A stretch of DNA of 64,000 nt from Allomuricauda sp. M10. GTDB taxonomy: Bacteria; Bacteroidota; Bacteroidia; Flavobacteriales; Flavobacteriaceae. A program made the position numbers and the translations under genes. Positions 241 to 64,000 of the stretch are shown here, in pieces. Where the stretch lies: assembly GCF_020782875.1 (NCBI RefSeq), contig NZ_JAJGBN010000002.1, positions 372,001 through 436,000 on the forward strand, read 5' to 3'. Every line of letters starts with the position of its first letter. Within the stretch, counting starts at the first letter, position 1. Below the pieces are notes generated by a model that was given only the letters and a program-made list of their open reading frames with translations, had not been told where the DNA came from and searched no databases.

Positions 241-2613
241 TTGAGACCCATTTTATCACTGATTGCCCTAATCTTGATTACCGCCTGCTCCAAAAAAGAG
301 GCAGAATCACTGTCTGTATTGTTGGGAGATTCACCCTTTATCAAAGGTGCCTCCGCTTACTTGGAATCGCCTTATGTGACGGCTGGGGACCGAGTGTACA
401 TGGTGGGTCACCAAGACGGTAGTTTCCCTCCTTTGGGTTGGCACATTAAGGGTGAAATGGGCGGAATTTGGAATCATCCCATCAAGCTTATGGATGGTTT
501 TGATGCCGAATTGATCGTGGATGGTAAAGTGATGCCTTTCAACAAGGCCATGGAATTTACCAACTACCCTTTTGCAAATAAGCACGAGTTTAACTTCGAA
601 GAAGAAGGTATTTCTGTAGAACGTATTCAGTTTGTTCCCGATGGAAAACAAGGGGTTTTTGTCCAATTTGTGATTCATAACAACTCCAATAACATCAAAA
701 AAGGGAAATTCCAATTTAGTGGGCAAACCGATTTGAGACCCACTTGGCTTGGAGAACGTACCAACATGGTTGATGGCAAGGACGAGGCCAACTTCGATGG
801 AAAAAAATGGACAGTAAAGGATGCATCCAATCCGTGGTTCAGCATTTTTGGTGCCGAGCAAACCCCTGACCTGACCTTGACCCATGAGAATCCAAATGCT
901 GCCAACGGGGTTTCCAATACCTTAATCTACGAAATCGAACTTCCTGCCGAGTCCAATTTTATATTGAATTTTACCATCGCCGGATCCTATATTTCTTTGG
1001 AAGATGTGGAGGAAAATTACACCTCTATCCAAAATAACTATTATACCCTAGCCCAAGAAAAGAAAAATCGGTACTCTGAATTGGCCAACGAGACCAAACT
1101 GACCATTCCGGATAAAAAATTGGAACAAACCTTTGAATGGCTCAAATACAACTGTGATTGGTTGGTCCGAACCGTTCCTGAAATCGGAACAGGTATTGGA
1201 GCCGGGCTTCCCGATTACCCTTGGTGGTTTGGTGTGGATAGCGAATACGCATTAAAAGGTTACATGGCCATTGGACGGGAAGATATTGTGGAAAAGACCA
1301 TCCAACTTCTGGACAGTGTTTCCATGGCCCTCAATGGCAACGGGCGCATTTTGCATGAAATGTCCCCCAACGGCGCTGTTTTTAACGAAGGAAATATCAA
1401 CGAAACTCCCCAGTTTGCCTCATTGATTTGGGAAATCTACACATGGAACGGAGATAAAGCGTTTTTGAAAAAGTATTTTCCAACGGTTCAAAAAGGACTG
1501 GATTGGCTATTAGCTGAAAACGACGGCAATCAAAACCTTTTCCCCGATGGTTTTGGGATGATGGAAATCCATGGTCTAAACAGTGAAATGATCGATGTTG
1601 CCTCCTATACCCAAAAGGCTTTTTTTGATGCTGCTCAAATGGCCGCCGAATTGGAGCAACCGGAATTGGCCATGAAATATCAAGCATTGGCAGACACCTT
1701 GAAACAAAAAATCAATGATGAATTTTGGTCCGAACAGTTTGGTTCCTATGCTGATTTTATTGGAACAGACGAGCAGGCCATTCATTTGATCGAGGATGCC
1801 ATAGTGAGAGCCGACACTCTGAACAAACCTTGGGCCGTTGAAGAATTGAATGCAACAAAGCAACAAATCCTCAATCATCCATCAAACCAACCAAGACCCT
1901 TTGTGCTCTACCACAATTGGGTGGTGAACACGCCAATGGAAATGGGTATCGCCGATTCTTCAAAAGCCATTGCAGCCTTGGACAACGCCAAAAAATTTAC
2001 GAATCCCTTTGGGATGTTCGTTACAGGGATCGATCGGGATGAATCCGCTGGTAAGGATTTGGGTTCCTTTAAAGGGAGTAAGGTTTTTTCCTATACCGGA
2101 GCCGTGATGACACTACCCACAGGAGTGCAAGCTGTGGCTGAAAACAATTATGGTCGCCCCGATGATGCCTTGGATTATTTACAGAGAATGACCCGCACCT
2201 TCAGCTATGCGCTACCGGGAAGCATTTATGAAGTTTCCCCAGATTATGGGATGGTGACCCAGGCCTGGAACATTTATGCGTTTGCTTTTCCCATTGTTCG
2301 GCAATTTTTTGGCATACAACCCATGGCGCAACATCAGATGGTAAAAATTAAACCGCAAATGCCAAGCTCTTGGGACCATGCATCCTTGGAAAATGTAAAA
2401 ATCGGGAACAATGAAATCTCCATTTGGTACGAAAACAAGGATGGCAACCTTCAAATGAAAGTAGAGCAAACTAATCCCAATTGGTCTGTTATTGTAGTGT
2501 TGCCGTATGATGATTATAAAATTTTGGAAGGCGAAGCCCAGATGACCTCTTCAGGAAAGCAAACCATTTTTACTGGAAAAGGTGCCTCTCTAGAGATATC
2601 AAAAAAGCAATAA
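241..2613 (+). CDS. Exported lipoprotein with (alpha/alpha)6 glycosidase-type domain (GDE/GH63-like)
   Basis: A 790-residue protein. The N-terminus is a lipoprotein signal with lipobox ITAC (Cys16), so it is probably anchored to a membrane. Residues about 30-270 look like a beta-rich N-terminal domain. Residues about 290-690 look like the helical toroid of glycogen-debranching or GH63/GH15-type glycosidases, with WWFGVDSEYA around Asp333 and HEMSPNG around Glu373. These acidic residues are plausible catalytic candidates but I did not align them. A short beta-rich tail follows. The probable job is hydrolysis of an alpha-linked oligosaccharide in the periplasm or at the cell surface; the substrate is unknown. 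The start is TTG, because no in-frame ATG lies between the -7 box and the signal peptide. recX follows after 2 nt. Confidence 0.75.
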   Translation: MRPILSLIALILITACSKKEAESLSVLLGDSPFIKGASAYLESPYVTAGDRVYMVGHQDGSFPPLGWHIKGEMGGIWNHPIKLMDGFDAELIVDGKVMPFNKAMEFTNYPFANKHEFNFEEEGISVERIQFVPDGKQGVFVQFVIHNNSNNIKKGKFQFSGQTDLRPTWLGERTNMVDGKDEANFDGKKWTVKDASNPWFSIFGAEQTPDLTLTHENPNAANGVSNTLIYEIELPAESNFILNFTIAGSYISLEDVEENYTSIQNNYYTLAQEKKNRYSELANETKLTIPDKKLEQTFEWLKYNCDWLVRTVPEIGTGIGAGLPDYPWWFGVDSEYALKGYMAIGREDIVEKTIQLLDSVSMALNGNGRILHEMSPNGAVFNEGNINETPQFASLIWEIYTWNGDKAFLKKYFPTVQKGLDWLLAENDGNQNLFPDGFGMMEIHGLNSEMIDVASYTQKAFFDAAQMAAELEQPELAMKYQALADTLKQKINDEFWSEQFGSYADFIGTDEQAIHLIEDAIVRADTLNKPWAVEELNATKQQILNHPSNQPRPFVLYHNWVVNTPMEMGIADSSKAIAALDNAKKFTNPFGMFVTGIDRDESAGKDLGSFKGSKVFSYTGAVMTLPTGVQAVAENNYGRPDDALDYLQRMTRTFSYALPGSIYEVSPDYGMVTQAWNIYAFAFPIVRQFFGIQPMAQHQMVKIKPQMPSSWDHASLENVKIGNNEISIWYENKDGNLQMKVEQTNPNWSVIVVLPYDDYKILEGEAQMTSSGKQTIFTGKGASLEISKKQ

Positions 2614-3099: not shown

Positions 3100-3975
3100 C
3101 TAACTCCACTTTTGGGCCATTACCCTTTGGGTGCGCAGAAGGGCTTGCTCGTTCTTCCAATCGATCCATTGTTGGCCTTTCATTTTACGCATCATGTTAT
3201 CAAAATGGCGCATTACGAAAATGTTATACACTGCCCTACTCAAGTTTTTGGGCTTTTTGGCAATGGAACGCAAGCTCATGGAAAAACCCGGCGTCACATA
3301 TTTCATATAGTGCCAATACCCTTCTGGAATATAGAGAACATTCCCGTGTTCCAAATGGGCGATATGTCCCTTGGCGCGTTGTAGGGCCGGCCATTTGTCC
3401 AGATCCGGATTATCAAAATCGATGTCTTCCCTAGTAATTAACGAATGGGGCACTTTGTACAAAAATTTGGTTTCTTCCTGTGAAAAAAGGATACATTGCT
3501 TTTTTCCTTCAAAATGAAAATGGAAAATATTGGCCAAATCAATATCGTAGTGCATAAAGGTATAGGAATCTTCCCCGCCGAAGAACAGCATAGGCAAGCC
3601 TTTCATCAATTTCAAACCAAAATCAGGATAGGTGAAATCCTTTTGCAGTTCTGGAATTTCTTTTAGAATGTTCCAAAGAAAAATACGGTATTTGGTAGGG
3701 CCACTCTTCAAAAGATCTACATACTCCGTCATCTTCATTCTGGCATGCGGCTCGTTAAAACCTTCATCGTGCTTTACCGGGCGATCATCATAAAGCGGTA
3801 CTTCCTTATCACCTGCCACCTGTTTCATATACTCCAGGTTCCATTTGGAATAGGCTGGCCAATCCTCAATAAACCTTTCGATCACAACAGGCTTTTGAGG
3901 CTTGAAATAGTTTTGGATAAAGTCCTTTTTCGAAAGGGTCTTTTCCCGAGGTATCTGTTCAAGGTTCAGCTTCAA
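3100..3975 (-). CDS. Cupin-like JmjC-type Fe(II)/2-oxoglutarate dioxygenase family protein
   Basis: 291 residues of the cupin_8 (JmjC-like) type. The facial triad that would bind iron is visible as His142-x-Asp144 (MHYD) and His222 (GYWHYMKYV). A Lys at 158/159 (EGKKQC) is placed to bind 2-oxoglutarate. The N-terminal PVVIERFIEDWPAYSKW is characteristic of the family. Likely a cytoplasmic hydroxylase or demethylase acting on a protein or small molecule; the substrate is unknown. The start is TTG and no better ATG is in frame. It lies downstream of bioB on the same strand with a 58-nt gap, so co-transcription is possible. Confidence 0.85.
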   Translation of the reverse strand: MKLNLEQIPREKTLSKKDFIQNYFKPQKPVVIERFIEDWPAYSKWNLEYMKQVAGDKEVPLYDDRPVKHDEGFNEPHARMKMTEYVDLLKSGPTKYRIFLWNILKEIPELQKDFTYPDFGLKLMKGLPMLFFGGEDSYTFMHYDIDLANIFHFHFEGKKQCILFSQEETKFLYKVPHSLITREDIDFDNPDLDKWPALQRAKGHIAHLEHGNVLYIPEGYWHYMKYVTPGFSMSLRSIAKKPKNLSRAVYNIFVMRHFDNMMRKMKGQQWIDWKNEQALLRTQRVMAQKWS

Positions 3976-4033
3976 GATTTCAAGGAATTAGGAAAAGCTA
4001 ATTTACTAAAACGTTTTGAAATGTTTAACCGCC

Positions 4034-5131
4034 TTAACTTTTGGAAACAGCACCCTTTTCCTTGGCCAATTCGTTCCTTTCGATGATATGGCCTGGTCTG
4101 GACCATTTCGGTTTTTCGCCCAAAGCAGTAAATTGGGAATCCGCAGCTTCCACGGTTTGTGGCTGGGAAATCTTGATAAACGGTTTTTGGGGAATCAATC
4201 CTAATTGTTTGAACATTTCCATATCCTCATTAACATCGGGATTGGGAGTGGTCAACAATTTATCCCCGGCAAAAATGGAGTTGGCACCAGCAAAAAAGCA
4301 TAGGGCCTGTCCTTCCCTGGTCATTTCCGTTCTTCCCGCAGAAAGACGTACTTGGGTCTCTGGCATTACAATCCGGGTTGTGGCCACCATTCGTATCATT
4401 TCCCAGATTTCTACAGGCTTTTGGTCTTCCATCGGAGTACCTTCCACGGCTACCAAAGCATTGATGGGCACGGATTCCGGTTGTGGATTCAAAGTAGAAA
4501 GGGCCACCAACATTCCGGCGCGATCTTGTTCACTTTCGCCCATACCGATGATACCACCACTGCAAACGGTAACATTGGTCTTTCGAACATTTTCTATGGT
4601 CTGCAAACGATCTTCGTACCCACGCGTAGAGATCACTTCTGTATAATATTCCTCTGAAGTATCAAGGTTATGGTTGTAGGCATACAGCCCAGCTTCGGCC
4701 AAGCGTTTTGCTTGATTTTCGGTCACCATACCCAAGGTACAGCAAACTTCCATATCCAACTTGTTGATGGTGCGGACCATCTCCAATACTTGATCAAATT
4801 CGGGACCGTCCTTTACATTTCGCCATGCAGCACCCATACAAACCCGTGAGCTTCCTGAAGCCTTGGCGCGCAACGCCTGAGCCTTCACCTGTTGTACGGA
4901 CATCAAATCGTTTCCTTCCACATTGGTATGGTAACGGGCCGCTTGCGGGCAATACCCACAATCTTCTGGGCATCCACCTGTTTTTATGGAAAGTAGGGTG
5001 GAAACCTGAACAGTATTGGGGTCGTGATGTTGCCTGTGGATGGTAGCCGCCTCGTAAAGTAACTCCATCAATGGCTTGTTATATATGTCAAGGATTTCTT
5101 CCTTGGTCCAGTCGTGTCTTGTCTGATTCAT
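4034..5131 (-). CDS. bioB: Biotin synthase (radical SAM)
   Basis: 365 residues, the expected length. The radical-SAM cluster motif CxxxCxxC is seen at Cys54, Cys58 and Cys61 ([12 protein letters not shown]). Other BioB signatures follow: [32 protein letters not shown] and [17 protein letters not shown]. It inserts sulfur into dethiobiotin, the last step of biotin synthesis. The other biotin genes of the window (bioA, bioD, bioF) lie 3-8 kb away on the same strand, separated by the flotillin operon and its terminator. bioB therefore has its own promoter, a TAnnTTTG box only 4 nt before the ATG. Confidence 0.98.
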
Positions 5132-5208: not shown

Positions 5209-6651
5209 CTATTCTTCTTTGGTATCATCGGATTCCTTGGAAGGTTTTGCCGGTTTTTTATCGCTTTCAATGGCTTTCACATCCTTCCCCTTCAAATACT
5301 CGGGAAGATCCATTCCGGCCATGTTGAACATTTCTTGCAAAGGCGGAACCGACTTGTACATCCCCGAAATAAAATTGGCGGTTGAATTCTTGCCATCTTC
5401 GGATTTGGTACCCGAATCCCAAACAGTGACCTTATCGATCTTGATGTTTTTGATGGCCTCAGCCTGTTTTTCAACAAGTTCGGGCAATTTATCCGCAATG
5501 AGCAACAACACCGCATCCTTTGGATTGTTGCCTGCAGCCTTCACGATCTTGTCCAACCCTTCGGCCTGCTTGGTCAATACCTCAAAAATACCCTTGGCTT
5601 CCGCTTGCGCCTTGAACAGGATTGCATCCGCCTCACCTTTGGCTTTTCTTCGGATTCGTTCGGCTTCGGCCTCCGCCTCGATCTCTACTTTTTGCTTGTC
5701 TATTTCAGCAGGAATTACAATATCGGCCATTTGGGAGCTACGTTCCCTATCGGCCCTAGCAATCTCCGCATCACGTTCAGCAGAATAGGATTCTTCCAAC
5801 GCTTTTGCAGCCTGTACTTTTTCAGAGGCGATAGCGGTTCTTTCCGCCTCGGCTTCCCGTTGACGACGTAGCGAATCTGAATTGGCGACATTAATTTTGG
5901 CCAAGTTTTCTCCTTCAACCGCTTTCGCATTGGCCGCAGCTACTTGGGAACGTTCATCCTGCAAGGCGTTTGCCTCTCCAATGGCACCATCCCTGTTTTT
6001 CTCCGCTACCGATTTTCTGGCGGCGTTGATGGCGTGGGCAGCGGCTTCCTTACCCAAGGCTTCGATATAGCCTGATTCATCAACAATATCCGTAATGTTC
6101 ACGTTGATGAGTTTTAGACCCACTTTTTTCAATTCCGACTCCACACTTTGTGAAATGTTGGTCAGGAACTTATCCCTATCAGCATTGATTTCCTCAATAT
6201 CCATGGAGGCCACGACCAAACGCAACTGACCGAAAATGATTTCCTTGGCCAATTCCTGAACTTCCTTCAAACCAAGACCCAAAAGTCGTTCCGCGGCATT
6301 CTGCATCACACCGGGTTCGGTAGAAATACCGATGGTGAAACGGGATGGCACGTTCACCCGAATATTCTGCCTACTCAAGGCATTGGTCAAATCAACTTCG
6401 ATGGAAATAGGGGTCAGGTCCAAAAATTCATAATCCTGGATGATCGGCCAAATAAAGGCGGCCCCACCGTGAATACATTTTGCGGAATTTCCGGTACCTA
6501 CTTTACCATAAACCACCAAAATCCGGTCGGATGGACATCTTTTATACCTTCGGATAAAGGAGATTATGATGATAAAGAAAAATAGTATGGCGAAACCAAT
6601 GACCAGTAAAGTGGCCCCTCCTCCGCCCATTTGTAATGGTAGTGTTAGCAT
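5209..6651 (-). CDS. Flotillin-like SPFH-domain membrane protein
   Basis: 480 residues. A glycine-rich N-terminus is followed by one membrane segment (about 14-34). A SPFH/Band-7 domain then spans roughly 35-220, followed by a long Glu/Ala-rich coiled coil (about 220-400) with repeated AEAEAER-type stretches typical of flotillins. The acidic and basic C-terminal tail looks disordered. Flotillins assemble oligomers that organise membrane microdomains and affect fluidity and protein complexes. It lies 5 nt downstream of an NfeD-like gene, the conserved partner, as in the Bacillus yuaF-yuaG pair, so the two are almost certainly one operon, closed by the terminator at 5157-5184. Confidence 0.92.
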
Positions 6652-6656
6652 GCTGA

Positions 6657-7232
6657 TTATTTATTTAAAAGATTAACGATCAAAATTCCGGTGTCGGTCA
6701 CATCTTGGACCTTCACCACATTACCTTGAACCAAATCGTGGTCTTCATCGGTAAGTGCTTGCAACTCCCTCAGTGTTCCTTGCACGTTAACGGACACCTT
6801 GCCCATTCGACTGCGTTTGGCCCCAATAGTGAGGTAAACTTCTCCAATTTGGTTCACTGCATTTTTTAGGTTGAGGGTGCCACTGCTCTGTAACTTGGCC
6901 AAATAATAGAACAAAGAGGCCATGGCCAACATCATCAATAATCCGCAAACCACCGAAATGAAAATGGTTAGTCCGGTGGACAAATCACTTTCAATACACG
7001 CAATTCCCGACCAACCGAAAATGGTAAAAAACCCCATTAGGTTCTTGAAGGACAAAAACTGAAAATCGATACCAGTATCCGCTTCAATGTCGGCATCCAC
7101 ATCGCCCATATCATCCACATCTCCTCCAATTAGCGTCATGGCAACGAGCACCAATAAAATGGCAGAACCTGCAATGGCAATTATCCAATAGACTTTCTCA
7201 AAGAGTGTAAGTGCTTCAAACCAATTTTCCAT
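6657..7232 (-). CDS. NfeD/YuaF-like membrane protein, flotillin partner
   Basis: 191 residues. An N-terminal membrane helix (about 14-36) is followed by an acidic stretch rich in Asp (DVDDMGDVDADIEAD, about 38-52). Two more hydrophobic segments lie at about 64-80 and 88-112. The C-terminal portion, about 120-191, is beta-rich like the OB-fold of NfeD proteins (GEVYLTIGAKRSRMGKVSV). It lacks the protease half of long NfeD proteins, as YuaF-type members do. It probably forms a complex with the flotillin encoded 5 nt downstream. The acidic loop is unexplained and could bind cations. Confidence 0.85.
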   Translation of the reverse strand: MENWFEALTLFEKVYWIIAIAGSAILLVLVAMTLIGGDVDDMGDVDADIEADTGIDFQFLSFKNLMGFFTIFGWSGIACIESDLSTGLTIFISVVCGLLMMLAMASLFYYLAKLQSSGTLNLKNAVNQIGEVYLTIGAKRSRMGKVSVNVQGTLRELQALTDEDHDLVQGNVVKVQDVTDTGILIVNLLNK

Positions 7233-58586: not shown

Positions 58587-59042
58587 TTACTGTTGTGGCA
58601 TTAACAGGTATTGTGCTTGCAGTTCCCTGATTATTTTGTTCCGTTTTTTCTTTCGTTTTATTGAAGAAATGAACAAAGGCAATGAAACTCCTACTTCAAA
58701 AGTTCCCAGAATCATAAGTCCTCCGCCAACAACTATAGCACCGAGATCTTCACATAATTCGTCATCCGTACAAGTAGTCCGATTAAAAATAAGATTCCCG
58801 CCCGTAAACATTAGTAGACCCAACCCTGCAAAACTTGACCCCATGATAAGATTGTTTTTTCGCTTTCGATCCATATCCAAAATTTCCCATAGTTTTTGTT
58901 CATTGGCTTCACTTTGTTGGATAAGGTAGTTGTAATCAAGCCCCAAATAATCCAGCCGCTGTTGTTGTTTGGGGGAAAAGTCTTGGGCATTAAGTTGTAT
59001 TGAACATACTATCCCCAATGTTAAAAAAATAATATTTTTCAT
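58587..59042 (-). CDS. Exported membrane protein of unknown function (151 aa)
   Basis: 151 residues. Signal peptide 1-19 (QLNAQ). A helical segment (about 22-60) then two hydrophobic segments (about 66-84 and 101-125) around a CTDDELCED loop that could form a disulfide. The tail is Lys/Arg rich (IKRKKKRNK). I do not recognise it. Last gene of a minus-strand group. Confidence 0.65.
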   Translation of the reverse strand: MKNIIFLTLGIVCSIQLNAQDFSPKQQQRLDYLGLDYNYLIQQSEANEQKLWEILDMDRKRKNNLIMGSSFAGLGLLMFTGGNLIFNRTTCTDDELCEDLGAIVVGGGLMILGTFEVGVSLPLFISSIKRKKKRNKIIRELQAQYLLMPQQ

Positions 59043-59110: not shown

Positions 59111-59623
59111 TCAATTGCCAATGTCCTCATTTGAAACAGTAAACACAATTGCTCCATACATGAAATAATCACCATCCCTTATGGGTTTATCATATTTTAA
59201 AATACTCCAAGAGTCATAATTATAAGGGCTGTTCAATTCATTTCCCAAATAGCTGGGAGGTCCTATCCATTCTTTTTTCAGTTCATCCCCCACAAACAGT
59301 TCAAACTTGCCATAATTATTAATATGGTCATAATAGATGCCCACATTTCTTTCAATTATCACTTTGGAATTGCCTTCTTTTACGCCATCAGAAGAAACGG
59401 AAGATGTAAAGTTGGCAGCCATTTTGGTGTTTGCTTTTAATCTAAGTGTATCTGATTTTTCATCTGTCGAATCCAAGCTATGGTAAACAATAGTTACATC
59501 AACATTGGCGGCGTTTTCAAATACTCTTTGATAGAAATCAATATAAAAGGATTCTTCAGGGTCACAGTTCAGCATACTAAGGCCAATCAGAATAGCTGTA
59601 AAATGCATTGTCAACTTTTTCAT
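59111..59623 (-). CDS. Small lipoprotein of unknown function, overlapping the HExxHxxH protein
   Basis: 170 residues. Lipobox SMLNC (Cys20). The remainder is beta-rich and acidic, with no family I recognise (VTIVYHSLDSTDEKSDTLRLKANTKMAANFTSSVSS). The start is inside the last 47 nt of the upstream metallopeptidase-like gene (or 32 nt using the next ATG), so the two are translationally coupled and probably work together. Confidence 0.75.
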   Translation of the reverse strand: MKKLTMHFTAILIGLSMLNCDPEESFYIDFYQRVFENAANVDVTIVYHSLDSTDEKSDTLRLKANTKMAANFTSSVSSDGVKEGNSKVIIERNVGIYYDHINNYGKFELFVGDELKKEWIGPPSYLGNELNSPYNYDSWSILKYDKPIRDGDYFMYGAIVFTVSNEDIGN

Positions 59624-61280
59624 CGTATGTTGTTTTAGTTTTTAATTCGGCAATCAAATCGGTAAAAGTATCCGTGGTGGATTTTAAACACTCAAATATC
59701 TCTTTGGTCGTAACATCCGGCAGATTGTCCACATCTTGTAAAAATCCAGGATTGTACCAATCTTCATCCTTATCAAAATAATTGTTGCTACTTGGAAATG
59801 CTTTATCGGTCAAAACAGCACTGAAATAATTCCCCCACATTTCGCCTATGCCACAATTTCCTGAATTTATTCCATGTCCATCCCCATAGGCTCCATAGGT
59901 TATAATGTAATTGATATACTTGATCCAATACCCGCTGCCTACCTTTTTAAAATGTGAGGCATGGCCCAATTCGTGGAAGGTAGTGGAGAAGACCCCATCG
60001 GTACCCTTACTACTCCCTGATCTAATGAGAATGTCCGGGAGTATGTACTTGTACATTATCCATATTAAATTTGCCGCTACTGTTATGCCATTTGCCTTGG
60101 AAAAAAAAGTAGAGACCTTTGAACGGCTGGTAAATCCGGCATACCCCCATACCCGTCTTAACATGGGCGCAGATGAATAACCTGTACCTCCTAGCGCCAC
60201 TATCCTTAAATTGTTGTGCGGCTGTCCAACACCCATTTGTGAAGAATAATTGAAATACTTTACCGTGGCATTGTTCACCATGGCCCACCGCCAGCCCACC
60301 GAATTGGTGTAAAAATCAAAATTATGGCCATTTCTACTTTTTTTACCTGCCCTGTACCTTGCCGATGAAATACTTACTAACGAAGGCCAAACAATAAATC
60401 CCTTGGTGTTTTTGAATACCACTGTATAATGAACATCCCTTCGGTAACCCCGATTTACTTTGTAGTGGCCTGTAGAGTTTGTCCACCCCTTGGCCCATTT
60501 GAACCAACGTCTAGTTTTTACTTTCACACCGATCACAGGATCAAGTTTGTTTGTCACCGTATTGTGCACCTTTACATATCCCTCGGGCGTCTTTTTGCTC
60601 TTCTCCACCATAGATTCGACCGGTTCTTCATAATTTCCGGTCAGCCGGAGTGCCTCGTCCTCCAAATCGAACAAAAATTGTTTGGAAATTCCCGTCCTGC
60701 CAGCAATGGCCGTAGTCTTGAAACCATTTTCCGTCTCCTCTCCTTCAACGTTTGAAGGCTCAATCAAAAACAAATCCTCGACTTTCTCAAAAGTTATATC
60801 TTTTGGAAATTCGTAATCTTTGACCACAGAGGCATAAAGCCATTGACCTTCCTGGATCTGGGCATCCCCATCCACATAATAATCACCTTCCTGTTCAATA
60901 TCAACATCCAATGGAATCTCTGATAAATTGAGTGAATCTGCTAACAGCAATTGTTTTTGTTCGTCATTTTCCACCCAAAACTTCACATAATAATCCGTAG
61001 TGGTAATCTCAGAAGAGTCCTTGAGGATTTGGGAATCATAACCCTTTTGACCCTTTTCCAACTTCTTAATGAGATTGGCGTAGGCCCTCCTCATATTCAC
61101 CACCGAATATGGATTCTCTAGCTTTTTGCCAAGCTTGATTTGCTTTAAAATGTCAGGTTCTTCCATTGCCAATGGAGGGGGAGAATGATTGATATGCGTT
61201 TCCTCCTTTTCACAAGAGAATATAACACAGGCCACAATTGTTATTCTTGCCATAGCCCAATACATTTTTCTTTGTTTCAT
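59577..61280 (-). CDS. Exported lipoprotein with HExxHxxH zincin motif
   Basis: 567 residues. Lipobox IFSC (Cys23). A helical N-terminal region is followed by a domain of carboxypeptidase-like beta-strands with GVKVKTRRWFKWAKGWTNSTGHYKVNRGYR (about 250-280). The zinc-peptidase motif HELGHASH (His436, Glu437, His440, His443) lies in a helix, and Glu480 (GIGEMWGNYF) is a candidate additional ligand. No known family is recognised. It likely cuts or binds a surface polymer. It is the 5' partner of a small lipoprotein gene whose start it overlaps. Confidence 0.7.
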   Translation of the reverse strand: MKQRKMYWAMARITIVACVIFSCEKEETHINHSPPPLAMEEPDILKQIKLGKKLENPYSVVNMRRAYANLIKKLEKGQKGYDSQILKDSSEITTTDYYVKFWVENDEQKQLLLADSLNLSEIPLDVDIEQEGDYYVDGDAQIQEGQWLYASVVKDYEFPKDITFEKVEDLFLIEPSNVEGEETENGFKTTAIAGRTGISKQFLFDLEDEALRLTGNYEEPVESMVEKSKKTPEGYVKVHNTVTNKLDPVIGVKVKTRRWFKWAKGWTNSTGHYKVNRGYRRDVHYTVVFKNTKGFIVWPSLVSISSARYRAGKKSRNGHNFDFYTNSVGWRWAMVNNATVKYFNYSSQMGVGQPHNNLRIVALGGTGYSSAPMLRRVWGYAGFTSRSKVSTFFSKANGITVAANLIWIMYKYILPDILIRSGSSKGTDGVFSTTFHELGHASHFKKVGSGYWIKYINYIITYGAYGDGHGINSGNCGIGEMWGNYFSAVLTDKAFPSSNNYFDKDEDWYNPGFLQDVDNLPDVTTKEIFECLKSTTDTFTDLIAELKTKTTYDEKVDNAFYSYSDWP

Positions 61281-61439: not shown

Positions 61440-62801
61440 CTAATACTTTGCGCCTGGCGTAAAATCCTGTGGTGCGTTTTGGGGCAGTTTTATGGTACCC
61501 GCATCCCCGGTATCGTTTAATAGGGTCCATTCTGAAAAAGTGTAAACTGGGTTGCCTTCTATAATGTTTGGGTTTCGAACAGCACGCCCGTCCTCAAATT
61601 CATGGTTGGTATTGGAACCATCTTCGCCAACTACTCCAAACACATCAATAATAGTTCCGAATGCGTCTACCAGTTCGAAGTTGTCATCTCCATTGGAATC
61701 GGCCGGACTATTGGTAGAAACTCCCAGATCGGGTGCAAACCCATACACCAGATGAAATTCCTCCGCATTGGGTGAAATGACCAAAGTGCTCTCCGCGCCG
61801 ATGATCAAGCCTGACAAATCGATTGTAGAACTTACTTCTGTTCCATCATTGGTATAGCGGCGAAGGGTCCATTTGTTAAGATCCAAAGGCTCGGAAGCGG
61901 AGTTATAGAGTTCCAAAAACCGTGCCCCTGAGTTGTTGTCAGGGTCGGCCAGTTCCGAGATAAAAATCTGGTTCGAAGTGAATTCTGTAATGATTTCCGG
62001 ACAGCGTTCATTGATGAAATCAACATCTTCCAAACTTCGAATGATCAGTTGCGGATTTTTACCATCCCTGACCAAAATTCCAGTTATGGAACCATTGCCC
62101 TCCGGAAGGATTTCTGCCTGAAAATCTGCATACCCACTATTGAGCAAAACCGTTTGATTTTCCTCGCAATCCTGAAGATGTCGCTCGGTTTCTTCTGCGG
62201 CAACAGCAAAGGGTTCTCCTAGTTCTTCATCTACAACTTCCAAACCATCCAGTTGCACCAAAATATTTAGAGGGAGAGTGTCCAAAGCTGAAATTGTGAT
62301 CAAAAGAGGTTCTACATTTACCTTACCATCACAGGCTACCAAAACATGCTCAAACACTTTTTGGTTGGGCAATCTGCCGATGGAAAGATTTCCAAACGAA
62401 GAAAAAGCACTCCCTAACCTGATATTCCCTTCCTTGTTGACCATATAAAGATCCTTCAACTTAAGCAAAACCTTGCTCCCTTCAGGATATATGAGATGGG
62501 ATTGCCGCATATCTACTTCCAATTGCAGACCATAAGTAGGTTTGGATGGTTTGTCTTGAATGAAAAGGGTGCTGAAAAAATTTCCAGCCTTATCCGAAGA
62601 TATCACATAGCCCTCCAAAATTAGGCTGTCCTTGATTTGCGATACCTCTTCCGTGGAAAGGGAATCCAATTCCACAAAATTGATGTTGGCCTTCAAGTCG
62701 GTATTGCAATTTTCCTTCGGAACGTCAAAATTGGAACTTTCCACACAGGAAAACATCAACAGTAACAATATACCTACTATGGCAAAAACTAAATTTTTCA
62801 T
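61440..62801 (-). CDS. DUF5689 lipoprotein with lamin-tail domain
   Basis: 453 residues from the ATG at 62801 (earlier starts would overlap the receptor stop). Lipobox LMFSC (Cys19). The N-terminal part (about 40-270) fits the OB-fold-like DUF5689, including ILEGYVISSDKAGNFFSTLFIQD. A C-terminal lamin-tail domain (about 290-420: QIFISELADPDNNSGARFLELYNSASEPLDLNKWTLR) follows. These proteins are typically encoded next to TonB receptors. It lies 11 nt downstream of the receptor gene. Confidence 0.88.
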   Translation of the reverse strand: MKNLVFAIVGILLLLMFSCVESSNFDVPKENCNTDLKANINFVELDSLSTEEVSQIKDSLILEGYVISSDKAGNFFSTLFIQDKPSKPTYGLQLEVDMRQSHLIYPEGSKVLLKLKDLYMVNKEGNIRLGSAFSSFGNLSIGRLPNQKVFEHVLVACDGKVNVEPLLITISALDTLPLNILVQLDGLEVVDEELGEPFAVAAEETERHLQDCEENQTVLLNSGYADFQAEILPEGNGSITGILVRDGKNPQLIIRSLEDVDFINERCPEIITEFTSNQIFISELADPDNNSGARFLELYNSASEPLDLNKWTLRRYTNDGTEVSSTIDLSGLIIGAESTLVISPNAEEFHLVYGFAPDLGVSTNSPADSNGDDNFELVDAFGTIIDVFGVVGEDGSNTNHEFEDGRAVRNPNIIEGNPVYTFSEWTLLNDTGDAGTIKLPQNAPQDFTPGAKY

Positions 62802-62812
62802 GTTCTCAAGAT

Positions 62813-64000
62813 TTAAAAGCTTATTGCTAGATTTAAAAAATAGGTGCGTCCGTAGCTGTACCAATATTTTGGTCCAAAAGAGGGAACCCCGCTCAGGTTA
62901 TCTTTTTGCCATTGGCCAAAATTGCCATTTCGACTTTGTTCATAACCTCCCGTCCTAAAAACTGAATCGAACAAATTGCTGACGCTGGCAAAAGCACTGA
63001 TGTATTTTTTGCCCCAAAGCCAAGATTTTCCACCCACCAAATTCAACAGATAGATATCCTCCATCTTTTTCTGTTGGAGGAGTTTAGCCACGTTTTCATC
63101 GGTGGCGTCAGGGAATTGCTCCCCTGTTTCTGGATCCAACAAAAAGCTTTGGGTACGGGCAATAGTGGAAAGGCTTATATAATTTTCGGTGAGGTAATTG
63201 GCGGTCGCTCCAAGCCACCAGTATTTGGGTGAGCGGTATTCCACCCCCCCTGCCAAGGCCGTTTGCGGACCTTGCGCCAATCGTAAATCTTTCAATTTGG
63301 CAATTCCCAGATCTACAGTTCCTTCGGTGGCGATAAGGTCTTCTTCGGAACCAGATGTATCAAAATTAATCTGTACCGAAGGGTCGCTCGCATACACATA
63401 ACTCCCCAAATTCCCTGCAAGATTCACCTTCACACTAGATGATGCCTCGTACTGGAATCCAAACTCGATGCCCTTGTGTAGCTTGTCCAATCCTGTGATC
63501 ACCTCTTGTACAAAATCGGAACCCAGCCCAGAATCCACAAATAAGAAATTGATATCCGTCGTATTCATAAACCGAGTATAGAAGGCGGTCACACGACCTG
63601 TGAGGGTAGGTAAGCGAACAAAATATCCAAGATCAACCGTCGTAATGGTTTCCTTCAGTATATCAGGGACCACCTCGTTGTGTTCTCTCGGATTGATGAA
63701 AATGTTCTGGACCACCGGGGGCCGTTCCAATTTGGCGGCACTCGCTGTTAACCAATGTCTGCCAGTCATGAAATAGGAAAATCCACCTTTCAACCCTAGT
63801 CCGGACAAGGCCACTTTTTCACTTGGCCCGAATGAATTTTCCAAATAACGTTCGTTGGTGAAAAGTCCGTTTCGCTGTGCATTGAAACTAGTGAAGGAAG
63901 CCGATGCATAACCGTTCAATTTATTAGCCGAGTAAGCCAACTGACCAAATCCTTCTAATTGTGCAGCATTAAATACATAATTGTAGTTGATGATCTCTCC
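62813..64000 (-). CDS. TonB-dependent receptor, C-terminal part (5' end outside window)
   Basis: The frame stays open to the window edge, giving 395 codons of beta-barrel: alternating strands, YFVRLPTLTGRVTAFYTRF, DKLHKGIEFGFQYEASSSVK, LRLAQGPQTALAGGVEYRSPKYWWLGATANYL, and a barrel end TYFLNLAISF with a terminal Phe. The plug and signal lie outside. It is co-transcribed with the DUF5689 lipoprotein gene (11-nt gap), probably a receptor/lipoprotein pair for one ligand. Confidence 0.9.
   Translation of the reverse strand, partial: GEIINYNYVFNAAQLEGFGQLAYSANKLNGYASASFTSFNAQRNGLFTNERYLENSFGPSEKVALSGLGLKGGFSYFMTGRHWLTASAAKLERPPVVQNIFINPREHNEVVPDILKETITTVDLGYFVRLPTLTGRVTAFYTRFMNTTDINFLFVDSGLGSDFVQEVITGLDKLHKGIEFGFQYEASSSVKVNLAGNLGSYVYASDPSVQINFDTSGSEEDLIATEGTVDLGIAKLKDLRLAQGPQTALAGGVEYRSPKYWWLGATANYLTENYISLSTIARTQSFLLDPETGEQFPDATDENVAKLLQQKKMEDIYLLNLVGGKSWLWGKKYISAFASVSNLFDSVFRTGGYEQSRNGNFGQWQKDNLSGVPSFGPKYWYSYGRTYFLNLAISF

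Follow-up and report, generated by a model that had tools for sequence, protein, structure and literature searches.

Within a 64,000-nucleotide (nt) stretch of Allomuricauda sp. M10 (RefSeq assembly GCF_020782875.1, contig NZ_JAJGBN010000002.1, positions 372,001 to 436,000 of the forward strand; hereafter the window), two overlapping lipoprotein genes on the minus strand form a candidate toxin-immunity pair. The first encodes a protein of 567 amino acids (aa) and the second one of 170 aa, both with a lipoprotein signal, in which the lipid-bearing cysteine is residue 23 and residue 20, respectively. A single copy of the pair was found by searching the source genome (3.93 Mb in 24 contigs) with its own sequence, while close copies are present in named relatives (Allomuricauda, Flagellimonas). 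The features are listed below in window coordinates with their basis in brackets (ORF, open reading frame); residue numbers in alignments A1-A3 and in the structure model are one lower, as their reference row lacks the Met.

59577..61280, minus strand: 567-aa lipoprotein, predicted thermolysin-fold zinc peptidase and proposed toxin (ORF call, conserved family, predicted fold)
59111..59623, minus strand: 170-aa lipoprotein and proposed immunity protein, modelled as all-beta at modest confidence (ORF, model)
61200..61214, minus strand: C23-E-K-E-E, lipidated Cys followed by a stretch resembling the lipoprotein export signal C-x-K-(D/E)2 (signal according to PMC5080379)
60591..61139, minus strand: conserved N-terminal domain, approximately residues 48-230 (profile searches, model)
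59976..60590, minus strand: transthyretin-like beta domain and peptidase N-lobe, residues 231-435 (model, fold comparison)
59952..59975, minus strand: HELGHASH (residues 436-443), metal-binding/catalytic helix, with the cassette-swap joint just behind it (alignment, DNA identity)
59841..59843, minus strand: Glu480 (in GEMWGN), candidate third zinc ligand on a second helix (invariant in the alignment; model helix 472-493)
59577..59900, minus strand: exchangeable C-lobe, approximately residues 461-567, with an uncertainty of some 40 residues on the position of the joint (exchanged among relatives along with the lipoprotein gene)
59577..59623, minus strand: 47-nt overlap shared by the 3' end of the peptidase gene and the 5' end of the lipoprotein gene (ORFs)
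59111..59130, minus strand: 20-nt 3' end coding for ..NEDIGN and the stop, with a second frame reading MRTLAID.. (sequence of junctions)

The original prediction, made from the window alone, had pointed to the zincin motif HELGHASH and a candidate Glu ligand in the 567-aa lipoprotein, and these ligands are borne out by the relatives: H436, E437, H440 and E480, together with W482 and D516, are invariant in an alignment of 22 peptidases, in which identity to the window protein ranges from 18 to 92% for the remaining 21. HExxH was present in all 41 loci gathered by similarity and in 3/3 further loci of the phylum sample (a count for HExxH alone), and the spacing between HExxH and the Glu varied from 24 to 48 residues. 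The longer HExxHxxH form of the motif held in its first part only, as two of 39 C-terminal pieces have Gln at the position of the third His (His443), and the metal site is therefore read as HExxH...E, i.e., that of a gluzincin. Structure prediction of the zinc site, a check proposed with the original prediction, gave a thermolysin-like model (mean predicted local distance difference test (pLDDT) score of 75) that places HExxH on helix 422-446 and Glu480 on the second long helix after it, 472-493 (both in model numbering). VIA-align 2 matched this model to thermolysin with Z 14.2-14.3 and a root-mean-square deviation of 3.2 Å over 231 residues, spanning model residues 231-564 at 8-13% identity. 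Foldseek alone was weak (top row allantoin synthase; best thermolysin-type row E 6e-4), with many transthyretin-like rows for the beta domain. The 567-aa protein is thus predicted to be a gluzincin of thermolysin fold, preceded by a conserved N-terminal domain to which no fold was assigned. It shares with thermolysin (M4) the predicted fold, HExxH and the downstream Glu, and differs in its low identity, its variable HExxH-Glu spacing and the absence of a Pfam M4 match, which none of the 22 peptidase members gave at E 0.1.

That the protein belongs to no recognised family, as had also been stated, agrees with the profile searches: Pfam, NCBIfam, PADLOC and PHROGs assigned it to none, Pfam matched the 22 aligned members only weakly and here and there, and a PDB sequence search did not lead to a family either. 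Several weak matches are not believed, namely those of single peptidase relatives to Matrixin (M10, E 0.065), SieB, SdrD_B and Ta0938 in Pfam (E 0.02-0.09), those to PHROGs families of unknown function (E 0.03-0.09) and a PADLOC match to RmrT (E 0.0022) of one lipoprotein among seven proteins scanned.

The coupling of the peptidase to a small lipoprotein gene whose start contains its stop, likewise noted from the window alone, recurs across the family. A lipoprotein of two related profiles lies within 450 nt on the 3' side of the peptidase in 35/41 loci, both profiles having been built from many of these same lipoproteins, and at one further locus (L070) the downstream lipoprotein falls outside both. 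Three non-family genes were removed from the lipoprotein set. With start codons picked mechanically, the first lipoprotein ORF starts at most 25 nt from the peptidase stop in all 34 loci in which both genes were called, and overlaps the peptidase gene in 24 of them, by exactly 47 nt in seven. Further lipoprotein genes may follow, up to six of them behind the first, which makes seven in all at L038. At L033, L038 and L041, 11 of the 12 lipoprotein-lipoprotein junctions consist of the same 20-nt overlap, which is read in two frames as the end of one gene (e.g., ..DEDIGN and stop) and the start of the next (e.g., M-R-I-L-G-I-D). The window lipoprotein ends in such a dual-coding element too, and the element could be a stretch of homology for chaining immunity genes. 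Imm25 (PF15564) was considered for the window lipoprotein and not upheld (19 bits vs. a cut-off of 25, E 0.0014); the L032 lipoprotein scored 16.1 and nine other lipoproteins scanned gave no score.

Eleven loci share the upstream gene for a DUF5689 lipoprotein (in the window, 61440-62864, a DUF5689 and lamin-tail-domain lipoprotein forming the upstream flank of the cassette), and ten of these also have KatG downstream, so that peptidase types, sorted by their C-terminal tails, could be compared at one site. Between types, the median aa identity was 67% for DUF5689, 86% for KatG and 21% for the first lipoprotein, and along the peptidase 47% (residues 43-225), 28% (250-430) and 18% (444-567), the low C-lobe value being partly due to construction and the lipoprotein and flank values not. 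Within types, the medians were 69% for DUF5689, 74, 86 and 83% for the three peptidase segments, 71% for the first lipoprotein and 88% for KatG. On the DNA level, L034 and L043 are 85-89% identical upstream and 98% identical in the initial 150 nt of the gene, 67% and then 30-55% inside the cassette, and again 71-94% downstream. A second kind of break falls inside the peptidase domain: identity between L033 and L038 is mostly 80-97% as far as the HExxH codon, whose own bin is at 93%, followed by 62, 55 and 35% in successive 60-nt bins, and their first lipoprotein genes are mostly at 28-53%, reaching 78% only at the conserved 3' end. Between the window and L034, DNA identity falls 120-180 nt past the HExxH codon. 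Because the DUF5689 gene is less conserved between the window and L032 (69%) than the cassette itself (91-94%), the comparison suggests that this cassette was transferred recently. No constant upstream partner gene was seen at the sites compared: DUF5689 stands at one and another gene, which we take from its sequence to be glycosyltransferase-like, at the second.

The trees tell the same story of exchange. In the N-part tree, L033 groups with L038/L041 (100/100) and the window/L032 with L034 (100/99). In the C-lobe tree, L033 stands with the window, L032, L035, L071 and L070 (100/100), and in the first-lipoprotein tree with the window/L032 (100/99), while L034 joins L038/L041/L039/L036/L040 (97/88). 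In approximately unbiased (AU) tests on ten loci, the groupings seen in the N-part were rejected when imposed on the C-lobe (p 1e-64 and 3e-89) or on the lipoprotein (p 5e-5 and 1e-53), and so was {window, L032, L033} when imposed on the N-part (p 1e-91). The log-likelihood gaps were 61-161 units, and the p values are too generous, since the groups were chosen after the larger trees were known. The phylogeny that the C-lobe shares with the first lipoprotein is, by these alignments, in strong conflict with that of the N-part, and two reciprocal swaps are documented at sequence level, with apparent breaks just behind HExxH. As in polymorphic toxins, a variable C-terminal part has been recombined behind a conserved N-part, and on sequence pattern the downstream gene travels with it.

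The lipoprotein arrays extend this picture. The best match of 35 later lipoproteins was the first lipoprotein of another locus in 26 cases and that of their own locus in eight, with one having none. For instance, L038_6 is 91% identical to L033_1, and L041, which is of type B as is L038, holds a copy 87% identical to L033_1, the first lipoprotein of a locus with a type-A tail. L033 carries a lipoprotein 67% identical to the first one of L038, which makes the relation between the types reciprocal. The same holds for other combinations: L032_2, in a type-A locus, is 75% identical to L044_1 (type C), and L043_2 (type C) 71% identical to L032_1. Arrays of this polyimmunity type are a mark of polymorphic toxins, as are standalone C-terminal cassettes, which we found in the form of six peptidase fragments without the N-part (L112, L113, L047, L054, G012 on contig 39, and G102). 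A lipoprotein gene follows directly behind five of them; at the sixth, L047, ORFs that we take from their sequence to be transposase-like (oriented positions 5721-6859) come first and the lipoprotein gene after them. The L113 fragment starts approximately at the motif and has Asn in place of the first His. G037:C1:50440 was rejected as an orphan fragment, since it is where the full-length neighbour L053 ends, read out of frame.

Lipoprotein-only loci were present in six of the 42 peptidase-less genomes of the genus (G006, G009, G023, G040, G043, and G065), not counting marginal A5 matches (E 1e-6 to 1e-3; e.g., G000, G011, G047, G048, G050, G057, G067, and G069). Judged by their neighbours, two such loci, L149 and L153, lie where other strains carry the peptidase. 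The lipoproteins of two of the six genomes, G006 and G040, belong to a solitary branch of the family, the role of which may differ.

A lipobox Cys was called in 37 of the 41 peptidase loci, the remaining four being left out of the signal count. In this lipoprotein signal the putative toxin resembles SitA-type systems. The residues that follow distinguish the two proteins: C-x-K-[DE] occurs behind the lipid Cys of 28/37 peptidases vs. 0/69 lipoproteins, or, counting distinct N-termini, of 25/34 vs. 0/58 (Fisher p 2e-15). A few lipoprotein calls took a later Cys, and the zero count held under both Cys-picking methods; acidic residues close to the Cys are found in many lipoproteins too. In Capnocytophaga, C-X-K-(D/E)2-X is described as the optimal surface-export signal (PMC5080379), and the peptidase is accordingly predicted to face outward and the lipoproteins to face the periplasm.

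A profile of the N-terminal domain found 29 of the 71 genus genomes (Flagellimonas/Allomuricauda) and the peptidase profile the identical 29, and in an even draw from the phylum each found the same 4/395 genomes, including that of the window itself. The family is frequent yet patchy in one genus and rare elsewhere in the sample.

Since the two genes are swapped as one cassette, the lipoprotein arrays consist of diverged copies and orphan pieces occur, we consider it probable that the pair constitutes a toxin-immunity system of the polymorphic type, with a surface-displayed protease as toxin and periplasm-facing lipoproteins as immunity. Comparison across the loci showed conserved ligands, a predicted fold, cassette swapping, arrays and orphan pieces; toxicity, neutralisation, delivery and target are inferred. 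The original prediction had gone as far as an undescribed surface protease or processing system, of which the exported zinc peptidase stood, the surface location corresponds to a signal match only, and the toxin-immunity pattern had been missed. In the mechanism that we propose, the 567-aa protein would be lipidated and, probably by flipping across the outer membrane, displayed on its outer face, from where it would reach the envelope of a neighbouring cell on contact or in shed vesicles and cleave an essential envelope or periplasmic protein there. The 170-aa lipoprotein would be made by translational coupling, face the periplasm, bind next to the active-site cleft on the variable C-lobe, and so block the cognate enzyme in the producer and its kin. 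Recombination would yield new specificities by replacing the C-lobe and immunity gene together, as in the two swaps just behind the HExxH helix, and displaced immunity genes might be kept in arrays as a guard against the toxins of other strains. A fuller version can be put forward tentatively, and we would sooner doubt it than rely on it: a self-contained lipoprotein weapon of marine Flavobacteriia, in which a surface thermolysin-fold protease would be passed on by contact or vesicles, its specificity renewed by recombination inside the active site with the HExxH helix as the conserved joint, and its immunity lipoprotein cassettes chained by the 20-nt dual-coding element.

Several observations weigh against a toxin-immunity system or blur parts of it. 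The strict signal, C-x-K-[DE][DE], is present in only 11/37 peptidases; C-E-K-E-E of the window fits C-X-K-(D/E)2, which is the consensus of Capnocytophaga and may not be that of this genus, and the signal of Flavobacterium johnsoniae is SDDFE and differs from it (PMC5080379). The sheath gene of the type VI secretion system (T6SS; PF05943) was not found in the genome, and no delivery machine was identified. Besides the after-the-fact choice of AU groups, the ten-locus C-lobe tree pairs L033 with L070, so that {window, L032, L033} forms no clade there (not rejected, p 0.36), and the ten-locus lipoprotein tree supports this group at only 91/86. In a partial Mantel test on 32 loci (seven of the 39 were left out, as their lipoprotein or N-part was missing), the distance of the first lipoprotein tracked the C-lobe (0.43) and the N-part (0.40), which does not single out the C-lobe; as both are tracked about equally, our reading is that exchange between distant types often involves more than the C-lobe, with L034/L043 as an example. 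The model of the 170-aa lipoprotein is all-beta at a pLDDT of 69, and a fold search with it gave no match at Z>=8, which is uninformative on its fold. Absence of the peptidase from draft genomes is possibly an assembly gap (e.g., G006, 310 contigs). The N-terminal domain was not found in any peptidase-less genome among the 71 genus and 395 phylum genomes, and profile searches found no unrelated toxin domains on it, unlike in classical polymorphic toxins; because such C-terminal toxins were not encountered, the pair is read as functioning in the way of polymorphic toxins, as a variant of the class and not as a classical member.

Three other explanations were weighed. An unlikely one, although it has the most in its favour, is a housekeeping or nutritional protease of the surface or periplasm, accompanied by a lipoprotein inhibitor or chaperone against self-digestion, the variation then reflecting fast evolution or pressure from phages or grazers. 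Its fold is that of secreted proteases, and five of the 41 loci (L061, L064, L065, L067, and L068), which also count against a toxin, have no lipoprotein gene behind the peptidase. Four of these constitute one clade (100/100, in a tree that did not include L068), in which the peptidase may be an ordinary protease, and L064, L065 and L067 share one conserved site beside genes that from their sequence are presumably a BrnQ-like one and Suf-type ones. An inhibitor of the cell's own enzyme, however, needs no array of up to seven diverged copies of which the later ones are mostly closest to those of other loci, nor would one expect the lipoproteins to persist in genomes that lack the enzyme or the cassettes to be swapped at one orthologous site.

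It is very improbable, in our judgement, that the zincin merely releases a toxin represented by the short variable C-terminal tail, in the manner of pre-toxin peptidases. The tail is the exchanged part in both documented swaps, and PVC-metallopeptidases are described as acting in this way (PMC3482391), but it can be aligned across the family, with D516 invariant and L532 and F560 near-invariant, and at only ~65-115 aa it lies inside the thermolysin match (model residues 231-564) and seems to belong to the peptidase fold. The two genes could in principle be unrelated lipoprotein genes with an incidental overlap, gene overlaps being frequent in bacteria; we give this hardly any credence given their adjacency in all 34 called pairs (24 overlapping), the lipoprotein family behind 35/41 peptidases (with profiles partly built from these) and the phylogeny that the lipoprotein shares with the C-lobe.

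Toxins exchanged as a cassette with their immunity gene are a known class, and the toxin-immunity pair proposed here resembles several of its members. SitA/SitI of Myxococcus (PMC5562445) likewise consists of an outer-membrane lipoprotein toxin with a variable C-terminus and an immunity gene immediately downstream, polymorphic among relatives; by its description, it has nuclease-type (SitA1) and tRNase-type (SitA3) C-termini, TraA-dependent outer membrane exchange and sometimes sitB, while the window pair has a peptidase and a lipoprotein as proposed immunity protein, and no constant upstream partner gene was seen at the sites compared. The C-terminal metallopeptidase of VgrG2b with PA0261 (Tpe-Tpi, PMC6899460) provides an experimental precedent for an HExxH toxin acting in the prey periplasm together with a periplasmic, envelope-located immunity protein, and the Tpe-Tpi immunity proteins of Enterobacteriaceae are predicted lipoproteins with fast-diverging sequences. 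VgrG2b differs in being borne on a T6SS spike and in having a different zincin, whereas the window pair would rely on lipoprotein export, a thermolysin-like predicted fold and a swap inside the catalytic domain. Polymorphic toxins and polyimmunity loci (PMC3482391; Tox-MPTases, PVC-metallopeptidase, Imm65) share C-terminal exchange, standalone cassettes, adjacent immunity and paralogous immunity arrays; zincin toxins are known among them, and Imm65 is described as the sole lipoprotein immunity family of that collection. The window family differs from what is described there by its one peptidase fold, the joint just behind the catalytic helix and lipoprotein immunity at all examined loci, and Pfam gives it no curated match to those families.

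Within the Bacteroidetes, the BSAP MACPF bacteriocins of Bacteroidales (PMC12853789) are antibacterial surface lipoproteins with an export signal as well; they are pore formers with C-terminal receptor-recognising domains, for which the accessible part of the paper describes no adjacent immunity lipoprotein array. TANFOR toxins (PMC7073777), of the same phylum, are polymorphic with downstream immunity, and differ in being large, in the proposed use of the type IX system and in carrying several unrelated toxin domains, the word lipoprotein being absent from the available text. A description of the pair itself was not found among the matches listed in the open-licence PubMed Central literature searched. 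What is new is that one peptidase fold serves as the domain exchanged, that the swap joint lies just past the catalytic helix, and that the design uses lipoproteins throughout.

If the toxin-immunity reading is true, a class of interbacterial weapon would be added in a major marine group, maybe one that does without an injection machine by using the surface-lipoprotein route of the phylum, and who inhibits whom would become predictable from the C-lobe and the immunity array alone. The loci would also be a source of naturally matched thermolysin-like proteases and protein inhibitors of high specificity, and provide an example of recombination placed at a catalytic motif such that recombinants stay active.

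Some further observations were made at these loci. Split peptidase frames stand beside full-length lipoprotein ORFs at L033, L034, L035, L037, L040, L057, L059 and L071, among others; these fit an immunity role and, given the lengths of the genes, were not counted as evidence. Four loci (L147, L148, L154, and L155) hold solitary lipoproteins that start CDPVSDMEA or CDPTSQMEA, relatives of the immunity family that form a branch apart and have no peptidase nearby. At L153 in G065 (3374-4167), the site looks reduced to a lipoprotein gene and an ORF that starts like the upstream TonB receptor and ends like a lipoprotein tail, possibly a deletion scar. Finally, positions 58587-59042 of the window encode a secreted protein of 151 aa, to which no family was assigned and which is retained behind the cassette, at the same site, in L034, L035, L042, L044 and L045.

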